NCBI GenBank assembly: GCA_024637045.1
Contig: JAGXFX010000007.1
Coordinates: forward strand, 1 to 64,000
Direction of reading: 5' to 3'
Length of the DNA stretch: 64,000 nt
Source of the DNA: Soehngenia sp.
GTDB lineage: Bacteria > Bacillota > Clostridia > Tissierellales > Tissierellaceae
The notes under the pieces are model-generated. The model made no database searches and was not told where the DNA came from. It worked only from the letters and a program-made list of their open reading frames with translations. The position numbers and the translations under genes are program-made. Positions 36,581 to 53,859 of the stretch are shown in pieces; position 1 is the stretch's first letter, and each line of letters begins with the position of its first letter.

Positions 36581-36606
36581 GAAAATCAAAAACATGCTTT
36601 GAATGT

Positions 36607-36715
36607 ATAATCTTCTTTCATCCAGACTTTACTGTCGGCTTCGGAATTTAACCGAATCAGCCTTACGGCTCGCGGGCTTTACCGCCGGTAGGGAATTTCA
36701 CCCTGCCCTGAAGAT
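36607..36715 (-). ncRNA. FMN riboswitch (RFN element)
   Basis: Minus strand AGGGCAGGGTGAAATTCCCTACCGGCGGTAAAGCCCGCGAGCC...GATTCGGTTAAATTCCGAAGCCGACAGTAAAGTCTGGATGAAAGAAG matches the RFN consensus. Confidence 0.97.
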
Positions 36716-36804
36716 TTAATATTAAGTTCGACAAAACTATATCATTAATATGGAAGTTTGTCAATTTAAACTTCCAGTAAATTTCACTTTAATTAATCAT
36801 ATAT

Positions 36805-48820: not shown

Positions 48821-48859
48821 AAAAGTGCCCAGGGGATCGTCCGTCCCCTGGGCACTTTT
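48821..48859 (-). terminator. strong hairpin/terminator at the DUF5714 stop
   Basis: aaaagtgcccagggga-tcgtccg-tcccctgggcactttt, 16-bp perfect stem overlapping the TAA. Confidence 0.75.
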
Positions 48860-49637
48860 ATTGACAATAATACTTACACTTTCCTTCTCTACATCCATGT
48901 GGATGTCTATCAACATGCTCGCATATTATCTTTTGTTCGTTTAATGGCAACTCCACATTAAGATGCTCCTTAACCAATTCAACCGCTTCCTTCAATGAGC
49001 TTCTTACAAAACTCTTGCAGCAGCAAGGTCCGGTTTCATCTGCAATGACATTGACTATTCTGCCTACAACCCTCATGGTTGTTGCAGTTTCATAATCTTT
49101 TGGACATGCAGCTCCAAGGAGGACACTAAAACCCGCACCGATTGCTGGCGCGATACCACAGACTCCTGTAAGTCCACAATACCCTCCAATTGCTTGTTTT
49201 CTGGTTCTTATCAAAGTTTCTTCAATCTGTTTATCCTGTACTTCTATAGTCCCCTCATTCTTTAATGCAGCCATTAAAGCTCCAGCAGCAATCCATGCAT
49301 TTTCACAACCAAGCATTGGGATTTCTTTTTTCAAGTTCATCAATCCTTCTGCTATATGTATCGGATCCTTCAATTCAGTTGAAAGTATTCGTCTCCTTAT
49401 TATCTCAAAGGCATCTGCCCCATGGCACTCATCGCAGATAAAATGACCATTTTCGCAGCTGATATTAGCATATTCATTGCTACCACAATGGTAACAGGTT
49501 AATTCCCTGCCTTCACTGAAGTAGTCTAGTTTATTCCCACAAACCTGACAATTTTCTGTGTTGCTCTTTTCCTGATGTATCACGACATCTTCAACAGGAT
49601 CTCAGCAACTACCAGCCTTATTAAATCTATCTGTCAT
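48858..49637 (-). CDS. DUF5714 protein, candidate selenoprotein (UGA at 49604-49602 read as Sec); Cys-rich
   Basis: AAAGGAGATATACA-ATG at 49637, then MTDRFNKAGSC-UGA-DPVEDVVIHQEKSNTENCQVCGNKLDYF... in one frame; annotated ORF 48858-49583 would need a GTG start with no SD. Confidence 0.6.
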
Positions 49638-49644
49638 TGTATAT

Positions 49645-49845
49645 CTCCTTTCCACATCTATAATAGATACTCCCAAAATACTCTGCATTTTCAATGGTAC
49701 AGTTGTCCCTTCAATATTTATCCTTGTTTTCAAATCCAATATTTTCATAACACCTAATTGCTGTTTTATTAAACTTTTTACTTCCAATGCTTCTTAGACA
49801 TGTTTCTACGATCTTTATAATATTTAACTGCATATAGGCTTTCAT
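49645..49845 (-). pseudogene. fused remnants of a deoxyribosyltransferase-like gene 5' end and a GNAT gene 3' end
   Basis: MKAY...VKYYKDRRN-like start (cf. 52406) joined to SKKFNKTAIRCYENIGFENKDKY*RDNCTIENAEYF (cf. SFNKRAIKCYENIGFEIKDKYCRETLTIKNAEFY at 50655-51146). Confidence 0.75.
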
Positions 49846-49846
49846 G

Positions 49847-50281
49847 CTACTCCAAGACCATTTTGATATGAGGAATACCATCCTCCATAAACTCTTCTGA
49901 AACTTTTTCAAATCCTACTTTTTCATAAAACTCTCTTGCATGAGACTGAGCCTCTATGACAATCTTGTCAGCATTCATTCTCTCCTTGGCAACCTTGATA
50001 CCCTCTAAAAGAATCCTCTTTCCTAGACCAATTCCCCTTTCTATGGTCAAGACACGTCCAATTGATACCTCTTCATGAGACACGCCTTTATCAACCACCC
50101 TTAAGTAGGCCTTTATTTCAGTATCATCCTTAAGATACACGTGATAAGAATGTTTATCTCTACCGTCGATCTCAGGATATATGCAATTCTGCTCCACAAT
50201 AAAAACTGCAAATCTCACTTGCAGTATTTCATAGAGTTCATCAACTGATAATTCTTCAAATCGTTTCACAATCAATTCCAT
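49847..50281 (-). CDS. GNAT acetyltransferase, ElaA-like (copy 1)
   Basis: FEELSVDELYEILQVRFAVFIVEQNCIYPEIDGRDKHSYHV...IGRVLTIERGIGLGKRIL; paralog at 52403-52840. Confidence 0.9.
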   Translation of the reverse strand: MELIVKRFEELSVDELYEILQVRFAVFIVEQNCIYPEIDGRDKHSYHVYLKDDTEIKAYLRVVDKGVSHEEVSIGRVLTIERGIGLGKRILLEGIKVAKERMNADKIVIEAQSHAREFYEKVGFEKVSEEFMEDGIPHIKMVLE

Positions 50282-50328
50282 GTTTTACCTCCACCACGTA
50301 TTGATATTAATCTTGTCTATTTGCAGTT

Positions 50329-50580
50329 CTAAATCTGCTCCGTGGAAATCTGAATCATATGCAGGTAGTTCGGATCAAGTCCTTCAATTCCATATTCATT
50401 GAGGGATTCCTCTGTAATCTGGATTTTTTTACCATTGCTTGCTTCTTCCCTAGCAACTTGAACTATCTTTCCAATAACCTCACTGACTTCATTATCTGAC
50501 ATGCCTGGAAATATCTTTTGCTTATAATCCAGGTCATACCCCACCCCAAAAAACCTGATCTATTCTCTCTCAAAATGTAA
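50329..50580 (-). pseudogene. C-terminal fragment of the 52888-53859 lipoprotein gene
   Basis: MGYDLDYKQKIFPGMSDNEVSEVIGKIVQVAREEASNGKKIQITEESLNEYGIEGLDPNYLHMIQISTEQI is near identical to the intact C-terminus; homology begins at DYILRE. Confidence 0.85.
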
Positions 50581-50581
50581 T

Positions 50582-50612
50582 CGGGACGCCGGGGACGGTC
50601 CTTTTTGTCCCA
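50582..50612 (+). repeat. dispersed REP-like repeat copy
   Basis: cgggacgccggggacggtcctttttgtccca; 30/31 identical to the inverted copy at 61199-61229. Confidence 0.85.
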
Positions 50613-50654
50613 AAATGTGTCGGGAATGGTAACCCTTGCATCAACAAAACACTT

Positions 50655-51146
50655 TTAATGGTTCTCTTTAGGACAATCTATATATTCCATATAATAGAAC
50701 TCTGCATTTTTTATAGTAAGGGTTTCCCTGCAATATTTATCCTTGATTTCAAATCCAATATTCTCATAACACTTAATTGCTCTTTTATTAAAACTCCTTA
50801 CTTCCAATGCTATGGGTCTGACTGGGAATCTATTCTTGCTCTCTTCTATCAACAAATTCATAATATCCTTTCCAAGGCCCTTACCACACATTGAGGGTTT
50901 CAATCCGATTCCGAGAAGCACAGTATCATTTTTAAATGTTATCACACCATAAGCTACTAAATGACTGTCCTGAGTAACTGATAAAAAATTAGCTTCTCTC
51001 TCTTCCTTTACAGCTAACTCCCATCTGTTCTCTACTATTGTATCCCAATCTGAAAGATTATATACAGAATACTCATCATTGTACTTCCATGTGCATATCT
51101 CCTTCGCTTGTTCTTCATTCATAATTGATAAATCATACTTATACAT
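50655..51146 (-). CDS. GNAT acetyltransferase
   Basis: VLLGIGLKPSMCGKGLGKDIMNLLIEESKNRFP, LEVRSFNKRAIKCYENIGFE. Confidence 0.9.
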   Translation of the reverse strand: MYKYDLSIMNEEQAKEICTWKYNDEYSVYNLSDWDTIVENRWELAVKEEREANFLSVTQDSHLVAYGVITFKNDTVLLGIGLKPSMCGKGLGKDIMNLLIEESKNRFPVRPIALEVRSFNKRAIKCYENIGFEIKDKYCRETLTIKNAEFYYMEYIDCPKENH

Positions 51147-51161
51147 AATTACCTCCCGTAA

Positions 51162-51527
51162 TTACATTATACTCTCTGCTTCTGTCACAGTTCCCTGATG
51201 AAAGTATATCTTCCAATCCACTCCATCCTTTACCCATACAGAGGTTCTAAGTGCATGGATTCCTAAATCCTTTTCATTTGAAATATAGTTGGCCATTATT
51301 AAATCATCATTAATCTTCTTGATTCCAAAATCAATAATTTCGATATCTCGGTCTGTGTCCAGATTGCTCAAGAATTCAACAATTGAACTTTTCTTAAATA
51401 ACATACCCGATTTCCCAAACTCACGAAATTCATCATGAATCCTCTTATCCAGGTTTTGTATGCTCTTGCAAAAGTCTTTTCTGAAGAAATCATTCTCATA
51501 TTCCAAAATCAGCTTTTCAAGTTCCAT
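51162..51527 (-). CDS. DUF4440/SnoaL-like (NTF2-fold) protein
   Basis: LEYENDFFRKDFCKSIQNLDKRIHDEFREFGKSG...ALRTSVWVKDGVDWKIYFHQGT; start after AGGAGG at 51527. Confidence 0.75.
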   Translation of the reverse strand: MELEKLILEYENDFFRKDFCKSIQNLDKRIHDEFREFGKSGMLFKKSSIVEFLSNLDTDRDIEIIDFGIKKINDDLIMANYISNEKDLGIHALRTSVWVKDGVDWKIYFHQGTVTEAESIM

Positions 51528-51549
51528 GATTGGTCCTCCTTTAAATAGG

Positions 51550-52002
51550 TTAAACCTCAATTGAATATATGCGTGAACTATCTCCCCATGGGTGATAACC
51601 TGTGCCAATATGCTCAAAACCATATTTTTCATAGTACCCTACATGATCTGTACAAAGATATAGGTTGGAAAATCCACCTTCCCTTGCATCTGTCTTGGCT
51701 TTTTCCATAAGTAGTGACCCATAGTTGTTGCCCCTATGATTTTCATCAATGTATATTGCACAAACCCAAGGATAAAGGTCCATGCGGCTAATGAAATCAT
51801 TTGTGATCAAGCCTGCACAGCCAACAACTGCATCTTCTTCCATCAGCAAATACCATTGGGGCAAGGGATTGGTCGCATCAATAGAGTTTTTAATACTGTC
51901 TTCGTATACCTTCATGCTCGCTGGTGATGCCCATATCCTTTGAAAATACTCAATTGCCTTGCTTGTATAATCCGGGTTTTCCCTTACGGAAATAATTATC
52001 AT
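51550..52002 (-). CDS. GNAT acetyltransferase
   Basis: WYLLMEEDAVVGCAGLI...AIYIDENHRGNNYGSLLMEKAKTDARE...YEKYGFEHIGTGYHPWGDSSRIY. Confidence 0.9.
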   Translation of the reverse strand: MIIISVRENPDYTSKAIEYFQRIWASPASMKVYEDSIKNSIDATNPLPQWYLLMEEDAVVGCAGLITNDFISRMDLYPWVCAIYIDENHRGNNYGSLLMEKAKTDAREGGFSNLYLCTDHVGYYEKYGFEHIGTGYHPWGDSSRIYSIEV

Positions 52003-52406
52003 GGTCTTCCCACCTTTAAAATATCTTTTAATTCAAACTCTAACTCTTCTATATTTTCGTAATAGATGATGCTTCTTGATATCCCTTCCAGGGTTTCTGA
52101 TACATCTGAGCCTTGCTTGGCTATTGTAATGACAGGTATATCCTTTGCATAGGCATATCCCGCCTCAATTCCTAATCCCACACCCTTCTCAGACAAGTCT
52201 ATTATCACCAGATCACATCCATCAATTTTTACAAAAGTCATCTTCATTAAATCATATGAATTGGCAAATTCGTTCGTTCCTCTGTAGTCATCTCCCACGA
52301 TGCAAACAGTTTCAAAACCTTTCTTTTCAAATGTAGATTCCAATTTATCAATAACATCCTTGTTTCTACGATCTTTATGGTATTTAACTGCTATGTATGC
52401 TTTCAT
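51999..52406 (-). CDS. nucleoside 2-deoxyribosyltransferase-like protein
   Basis: MKAYIAVKYHKDRRNKDVIDKLESTFEKKGFE...CDLVIIDLSEKGVGLGIEAGYAYAKDIPVITI. Confidence 0.7.
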   Translation of the reverse strand: MKAYIAVKYHKDRRNKDVIDKLESTFEKKGFETVCIVGDDYRGTNEFANSYDLMKMTFVKIDGCDLVIIDLSEKGVGLGIEAGYAYAKDIPVITIAKQGSDVSETLEGISRSIIYYENIEELEFELKDILKVGRP

Positions 52407-52840
52407 ACTTCCAGAACCATTTTGATATGAGGAATCCCGTCTTCTATAAACTCCTCTGATACTTGCTTAAATCCTGCTTTTTCATAGTATTCTTTTGCGT
52501 AGGATTGAGCTTCTATAATTATTCTATCTGCATTCATTCTCCCTCTGGCAACCTTGATCCCCTCAGAAAGAATCCTCTTTCCCAGTCCAATTCCTCTCTT
52601 CGTGGTCAAAACTCGTCCAATTGATACCTCTTCATGAGATATGCCTTTGTCAACTACCCTTAAGTAAGCCTTGATCCCTGTATCATCTCTTAGAAAAACA
52701 TGGTATGAGTATTGATCTTTACCATCTACTTCTTGATATATACACTCTTGCTCCACAATAAATACTGCAAATCTCACTTGCAGTATTTCGTACAGTTCAT
52801 CAACCGATAATTCTTTAAATCGTTTCACAACCAATCTCAT
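52403..52840 (-). CDS. GNAT acetyltransferase, ElaA-like (copy 2)
   Basis: Near-identical paralog of 49847-50281. Confidence 0.9.
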   Translation of the reverse strand: MRLVVKRFKELSVDELYEILQVRFAVFIVEQECIYQEVDGKDQYSYHVFLRDDTGIKAYLRVVDKGISHEEVSIGRVLTTKRGIGLGKRILSEGIKVARGRMNADRIIIEAQSYAKEYYEKAGFKQVSEEFIEDGIPHIKMVLEV

Positions 52841-52887
52841 AATTTACCTCCACCATACATAGCTATAAGCTTTTGTCTATTGCAGCT

Positions 52888-53859
52888 CTAAATCTGCTCC
52901 GTGGTAATCTGGATCATATGCAGGTAGTCTGGATCAAGTCCTCCAATTCCATACTCATTGAGAGATTCCTCTGTAATCTGGAACTTTTTATCCTTACTCG
53001 CTTCTTCCCTTGCAGCTTGGACTATCTTTCCAATAACCTTACTTACTTCATCATCTGACATTTCTGGAAATATCTTGTCCTTGTAATCAAGATCATACCC
53101 GACTCCAACAATGCCAGAACTCTCATCTCGCAGAATATAGTCAGTCATCTTAGTCTCTTCCCATTCCACACTATTGGGAGATACATTTGAGTATAGAGTA
53201 ATGTTGTCCTGTTCATCCATTACAACTTTGAAATCAAAATTCATTTCCTTTGGCTGAAGATATTCATCATACATCAGCTGATAATTCTCATTTCCGCTTT
53301 CCTTGGCTTCTTTTATATAGCCAGCAGTGTCAGGGTCTCTGTCATAGTTCTTGCTTACAATTGTGTACAAGAACTCAGCTTCTACATTTCCATCAACCAT
53401 TTCTTCATTGTAATCTGAGATCCTAAATTCCAGGAGTTCATAATATGGTGAAAAAGCTTCTATGCTCTCTCCTTTCAAATACTCGCTTATTTTCATATAT
53501 GCGGAATCTTCTTCCTGCTCCACTGGCTTCGCTTCAGGCTTTTCATCCCTTTCAATAAGCTCTACGGATATGGTCTCAATACCAAGAGGATATTTTTCCT
53601 GTATGGGTCCTTTATGGGTTACTTTTACCCGATCGCCAACCATGAATTCAAAATTGTCACTTACAGAAAGGCTTACCTCAACCAGGTCTCCTGATCTTCT
53701 GATATCCTCACCTTCGTCTGCCAATACAATAGCTGTCAGCCCACTTATCTCAGTTATTGTTCCAACAAACTCTTCCTCAAGCTCTTGGCTACAGCCTGAA
53801 ACAACAATTCCTAGTATAACTGTTAAAATCATCAAAAGTTTATTTTTCATTTTCTCCAC
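52888..53859 (-). CDS. lipoprotein with DUF3221-like domain
   Basis: LLMILTVILGIVVSGCSQ lipobox; EFVGTITEISGLTAIVLADEGE...VGDRVKVTHKGPIQEKYPLG. Confidence 0.75.
   Translation of the reverse strand: MEKMKNKLLMILTVILGIVVSGCSQELEEEFVGTITEISGLTAIVLADEGEDIRRSGDLVEVSLSVSDNFEFMVGDRVKVTHKGPIQEKYPLGIETISVELIERDEKPEAKPVEQEEDSAYMKISEYLKGESIEAFSPYYELLEFRISDYNEEMVDGNVEAEFLYTIVSKNYDRDPDTAGYIKEAKESGNENYQLMYDEYLQPKEMNFDFKVVMDEQDNITLYSNVSPNSVEWEETKMTDYILRDESSGIVGVGYDLDYKDKIFPEMSDDEVSKVIGKIVQAAREEASKDKKFQITEESLNEYGIGGLDPDYLHMIQITTEQI

Follow-up and report, generated by a model that had tools for sequence, protein, structure and literature searches.

A probable stand-alone, single-selenocysteine relative of MbdU in Soehngenia sp.

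Within the stretch of DNA analysed here (64,000 nucleotides of Soehngenia sp. contig JAGXFX010000007.1, hereafter the window), a gene on the minus strand between positions 49637 and 48858 very probably encodes a genuine selenoprotein, which, judged from sequence, would be a stand-alone, single-Sec homologue of the DUF5714 part of MbdU. This reading, put forward as a candidate in the initial annotation of the window, is strongly supported by the sel genes of the genome, by the presence of a Cys-UGA dipeptide in homologues, by start sites that lie upstream of the UGA and by a covarying hairpin. UGA recoding and the protein family are both already known in kind; the stand-alone, single-Sec form appears new.

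Read directly on the minus strand, AAAGGAGATATACA leads into an ATG at 49637, a stretch encoding MTDRFNKAGSC, a UGA at 49604-49602 and then DPVEDVVIHQEKSNTENCQVCGNKLDYF, with 247 sense codons after the UGA keeping the frame open to a TAA at 48860-48858. Direct reading thus confirms the Shine-Dalgarno-driven ATG, the in-frame UGA and the open frame that had been described previously. An ORF caller that takes no account of recoding starts instead at the GTG at 49583, giving a product of 241 amino acids; as had been stated, this GTG has no Shine-Dalgarno sequence and lies in a hairpin loop. Since a 14-bp inverted repeat directly follows the stop codon, the gene has its own terminator, which faces a convergent electron-transfer-flavoprotein gene. 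The features of the gene are as follows.

49645..49649, minus strand: Shine-Dalgarno sequence AGGAG (within AAAGGAGATATACA), read directly, 7 nt 5' of the ATG
48858..49637, minus strand: complete putative selenoprotein gene, ATG to TAA, short MbdU-like with DUF5714; 259 residues, one Sec
49605-49607, minus strand: Cys11 codon TGC, directly before the UGA
49602..49604, minus strand: UGA codon 12, predicted to be read as selenocysteine; all 31 distinct sequences have Cys-UGA in this column
49581..49583, minus strand: GTG, the false start of a naive ORF caller, inside the hairpin loop and without a Shine-Dalgarno sequence
48823..48857, minus strand: transcription terminator, a perfect 14-bp inverted repeat (AAGTGCCCAGGGGA/TCCCCTGGGCACTT) with a T-rich end, read directly and in agreement with a terminator scan

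The genome that contains the window (G000; 2.37 Mb, 93% complete) possesses the machinery that such decoding calls for. SelB was identified at 383 bits, with selA adjoining selB; SelD scored 403 bits and the tRNA-Sec 68.8 bits (gathering score 47), so that all four genes named in the initial annotation as a check (selA, selB, selC and selD) were found. This SelD carries an in-frame UGA of its own (SSGUAAKI), at the site where SelD proteins that contain Sec usually have it, and provides a positive control for the decoding of Sec in the genome. There is a compact selD-selA-selB-selC cluster at C24:177474-182689 (loci L001, L008 and L066), the SelD of which is a selenoprotein. Genome-wide reassignment of UGA was considered and rejected, as 11 of the window's 45 long open frames have TGA as their stop.

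We then compared the N-termini of homologues, where the same extension with Cys-UGA proved common to the relatives, as the initial annotation had proposed to check. The Cys-UGA dipeptide is present in every one of 31 distinct sequences, the window's included (29 from the main set, together with two added from G506 and Acetoanaerobium noterae), and the relatives span Gudongella, Clostridium, Desulfosporosinus, Desulfoscipio and Acetoanaerobium. Two congeners, one of them Gudongella sp. M17C-05 (L030), have the same frame with one TGA and the same SC-UGA, at identities of 66% and 55%. A scan of the genome collection yielded 13 loci, from Gudongella, Clostridium carboxidivorans, Clostridium drakei, Desulfosporosinus, Desulfoscipio and other Bacillota, with Cys-UGA in the same column at 12; at the thirteenth, L036 from a metagenome bin, the Cys-UGA segment is absent and the frame opens just 5' of the first CxxC. 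There (L036:321-400) the Cys-Sec/SECIS segment is missing and the apparent start is a downstream ATG, reflecting either a real loss or an assembly error. Across 74 genomes of the Desulfosporosinus order, all matches above 420 bits (29 places) contain exactly one TGA, and, if a single frameshift-split copy is set aside, the next matches fall below 150 bits. Searching the order to which the window belongs yielded one further relative, G506. Starts led by a Shine-Dalgarno sequence were found 5' of the UGA in 27/31 sequences and in none of the 31 within the interval from the UGA to the first conserved CxxC, and in 19/31 the next start codon of any kind lies at or beyond that CxxC. Within the close clade we found no close homologue with Cys in place of Sec. 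Distant DUF5714 proteins (L045, L065 and L127) do have CC or CxC tails, whose column-by-column alignment is not confident. The conservation of Cys-UGA is, on these counts, more than chance.

A hairpin downstream of the UGA forms the remaining line of evidence.

49574..49589, minus strand: bacterial SECIS-type hairpin, GAUGU (49589-49585) paired with ACAUC (49578-49574), supported by covariation
49584-49579, minus strand: hairpin loop CGUGAU, 17 nt after the UGA
49570..49599, minus strand: possible lower stem, UCCU (49599-49596) with AGGA (49573-49570), in this genome only; constrained fold -5.6 kcal/mol

Support for this hairpin is comparative rather than energetic, because the window hairpin is weak and, taken alone, no better than shuffles. 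In an alignment that is gap-free from the UGA, with positions counted from the UGA, the helix joining +13..+17 with +24..+28 was the best among all 5-bp helices in the region, and RNAalifold, unprompted, predicted the same helix. Across 13 sequences, 95% of cells are paired, with compensatory changes in four of the five pairs. When 29 sequences are compared, each of the four core pairs is 100% paired and each varies, with two-sided changes in three of them (11 two-sided changed cells versus 3.0 in shuffles), and sliding the helix by a single column reduces pairing to 2-6%. The loop is UGGUCA in 20/29 sequences; the E. coli formate dehydrogenase SECIS likewise has GGUC in its loop. The initial annotation was right to expect a hairpin after the UGA, which covaries, but not in the pairing it proposed: UCCUG(U)UG/CA(U)CAGGA can fold (MFE -5.7, z = -0.14, no better than shuffles), yet it is rejected as the conserved SECIS, as 35% of its cells are paired, fewer than the shuffle mean, whereas the inner GAUGU/ACAUC helix is conserved. 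In the window, the fold with the conserved helix (-5.6 kcal/mol) is essentially isoenergetic with that containing the outer UCCUG/CAGGA helix (-5.7). The bSECIS model describes a stem of 4-16 bp and a loop of 3-9 nt lying 16-37 nt after the UGA, with a G within the first two nucleotides of the loop, usually with G or U as the next nucleotide, and an MFE limit of -7.5 kcal/mol or lower (PMC13188914). The window hairpin has this geometry (5 bp, a 6-nt loop, a G in the second loop position and then a U, 17 nt) but lies above the MFE limit, at -5.6 to -5.7 kcal/mol for a 37-nt element versus -7.5, a value which is one search tool's threshold and no defining feature of selenoproteins; the same element in five relatives ranges from -6.0 to -10.5 kcal/mol. 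Rfam gave no match of meaningful score at the hairpin site. In the mechanism we propose, SelB with Sec-tRNA(Sec) would read UGA codon 12 as selenocysteine, with insertion directed by this hairpin, the loop of which starts 17 nt past the UGA.

Turning to the identity of the protein, residues 80-257 match Pfam PF18978 (DUF5714) at 172.2 bits (E 9.8e-51; gathering score 26.2 bits), and residues 16-258 match the first 267 positions of NCBIfam NF045648 (MbdU) at 375.1 bits, against a curated cutoff of 600; none of the other NCBIfam models in release 20.0 was matched. NF045648 describes a DUF5714-DUF2284 protein with two Sec, named metal-binding double selenoprotein, and MbdU has been listed with the motif CU and 2 Sec, credited to Haft & Tolstoy 2025 (PMC13188914). 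The statement in the initial annotation that no Sec-containing DUF5714 was documented is therefore outdated, MbdU being such an example. Full MbdU-type proteins from Desulfosporosinus lacus (L042, 803 bits) and SKS3.bin19 (L039, 795 bits) consist of a Cys-Sec tail and DUF5714, followed by DUF2284 with a second in-frame UGA (GTG[SP]S-U-QTGQN). The window protein is 59-60% identical to these two and has the same N-terminal Cys-Sec tail, zinc-ribbon-like segment and DUF5714 domain, whereas it is without the C-terminal DUF2284 and the second Sec, and is 259 rather than about 456 amino acids long. No DUF2284 gene was found in its genome or in two congener genomes (G003 and G004). Since it is without DUF2284 and a second Sec and reaches 375 bits against a cutoff of 600, we regard it as a stand-alone, single-Sec variant, which the curated NF045648 model is too strict to recognise.

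Other families share parts of this architecture. PF18978 proteins in general have the DUF5714 domain in common with the window protein, but typical members are without the Cys-Sec tail. The NF041536 arsenite methyltransferase/DUF2284 double selenoprotein has DUF2284 in common with full MbdU (265 bits for L039), implying that DUF2284 has been joined to either ArsM or DUF5714; the window protein has neither DUF2284 nor the methyltransferase. Window residues 139-216 also resemble C_GCAxxG_C_C (PF09719) at E 0.0037, a similarity below the gathering score for which no membership is claimed. The C_GCAxxG_C_C family, too, has Sec-containing members (PMC13188914). In addition, we noted radical SAM-DUF5714 fusions of about 730 amino acids (L062:31-2229 and L063:1510-3699), for which no listed NCBIfam model reaches its cutoff; in L062, several CC motifs precede the DUF5714 part.

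A tree of 51 DUF5714 domains placed the Sec clade on one side of a long branch (length 1.96, support 100/100). Fused forms occur at two separate places among the short forms (L039/L042 and L097), and the inner branches of the clade are only partly supported. In this sample the short single-Sec form is commoner than the fused form and MbdU fusions are nested within its clade, a pattern that suggests that the short form may be older, or that DUF2284 may have been gained or lost more than once. One DUF5714-Sec protein, L098, has a frame of 336 amino acids closed by TAA, intermediate in length between the short (about 265) and fused (about 456) forms, and is possibly a truncated DUF2284 fusion.

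A comparison of gene neighbourhoods over 13 loci revealed no conserved partner gene. The TrsS radical-SAM selenoprotein was not found above cutoff in the window's genus; TrsS is present in two other genomes, away from their DUF5714-Sec loci. Upstream of the gene, the window contains an imperfect duplication of a GNAT-acetyltransferase block (49680-52998; 300 nt 80% identical and 119 nt 89% identical, each at a spacing of 2559), including a 94-nt remnant at 49680-49773 that is 87% identical to 50699-50792 within an intact GNAT gene (50655-51146). In Gudongella M17C-05, an intact GNAT gene lies directly upstream of the selenoprotein gene. Elsewhere, the window contains an FMN riboswitch (36606-36719, minus strand, 125.7 bits), and a 2.63-Mb Acetoanaerobium noterae "plasmid" (L122; NZ_CP154629.1) carries an aminoacyl-tRNA synthetase gene and, judged by this gene and its size, looks like a chromosome that was deposited under a plasmid label.

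The predicted product would carry, in order, a flexible N-terminal tail with the adjacent Cys-Sec, a zinc-ribbon-like Cys-rich segment and the DUF5714 domain.

49422..49556, minus strand: Cys-rich, zinc-ribbon-like segment, residues 28-72; C30xxC33, C48xxC51, C61 and C68xxC71H72 invariant in the Sec clade
48867..49400, minus strand: DUF5714 domain, residues 80-257; invariant C111, C154, C160, C178, C205-C207, C239, C249 and C254

Residues 1-27, Cys-Sec included, are predicted to be disordered (pLDDT <50), with most of the body at 80-97. Residues 28-72 contain a weak match to Pfam Zn_ribbon_IS1595 (E 0.017). A Foldseek comparison of the predicted model (pLDDT 77.5) with the PDB gave no usable match (best E 0.5), and a sequence search of the PDB yielded nothing beyond weak, zinc-finger-like matches to ClpX (E 0.02 or higher). 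We infer that the zinc-ribbon-like segment holds a metal and that the protein works through its Cys-Sec pair.

Two alternative accounts of the gene must be weighed against the proposed selenoprotein. Were the UGA a true stop, ending a short leader peptide or marking a decayed start, the GTG at 49583 would begin an ordinary, non-seleno DUF5714 protein; automatic ORF calling does pick this codon, and distant DUF5714 proteins mostly start just before CxxC and lack an N-terminal Cys-Sec tail. An invariant Cys-UGA in all 31 distinct sequences, starts with a Shine-Dalgarno sequence 5' of the UGA (27/31) rather than between it and the first CxxC (0/31), a next start codon at or past that CxxC in 19/31 and the covarying hairpin all argue against this account, which we consider very improbable. 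Alternatively, the window protein could be MbdU itself, an NF045648 member shortened by loss or assembly, as its 375 bits over the first 267 model positions and a Cys-Sec tail identical in kind to that of full MbdU might indicate. This seems unlikely in view of a score below the curated cutoff of 600, the clean TAA and terminator in a gene that has neither DUF2284 nor a second UGA, the failure to find a DUF2284 gene in G000, G003 or G004, and the short form of most clade members, among which fused forms occupy two places in the tree.

For the stand-alone selenoprotein that we favour, the chemistry of the Cys-Sec pair is a further question. An adjacent thiol and selenol on a flexible tail, together with a Cys-rich body, fit either a protein that captures a soft metal(loid) and passes it on or one that carries out a redox step. 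Most likely the pair would act as a soft-metal(loid) ligand or trap from which the Cys-rich body receives the cargo (or electrons), and a metal(loid)-handling role for the window protein, which is read from sequence and context, has in our view about an even chance of being correct. Hints come from the naming of MbdU as metal-binding by NCBI curators, from the fusion of DUF2284 to DUF5714 or to arsenite methyltransferase, and from the radical SAM enzymes to which some DUF5714 domains are joined. In Desulfosporosinus metallidurans (L033), a Cd/Zn-type P-type ATPase and an ArsR/SmtB regulator lie directly upstream, a metal-export context seen at this one locus only. The pair might instead form a thiol/selenol redox centre that exchanges electrons with Fe-S/Cys centres of DUF5714 and traps no metal, a real possibility from which we nonetheless incline away. 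Consistent with it, DUF5714 shows a weak resemblance to C_GCAxxG_C_C, a putative redox-active family (E 0.0037 with the window protein, E 0.00012 with L045), and electron-transfer-flavoprotein and acyl-CoA dehydrogenase genes are neighbours of the gene in both the window and L030. These flavoprotein genes are, however, convergent to the selenoprotein gene and form no operon with it; the fused relative MbdU carries the curators' metal-binding name, and Cys next to Sec is a motif given for SaoL, an organometal protein, as well (PMC13188914).

More speculatively, and with just short of an even chance, the short form could have founded a separate family of single-Sec proteins and be its most widespread member, a stand-alone soft-metal trap built on Cys-Sec. 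MbdU would then have arisen from the short form by later fusion to DUF2284, and, since none of the curated models accepts the short form, its start would probably be wrongly placed in most genome annotations. Judging from the NF045648 cutoff and the start chosen by the ORF caller, the gene is probably called in truncated form, without the Cys-Sec site, in genomes from at least five anaerobic genera. With this finding, a selenoprotein family that is catalogued solely as a fusion with two Sec would gain a stand-alone architecture with a single Sec. As an unfused protein of 259 residues and one Sec, it would be a simpler biochemical object than MbdU, and as a small, Cys-rich selenium protein it very probably occurs in many anaerobic Firmicutes.
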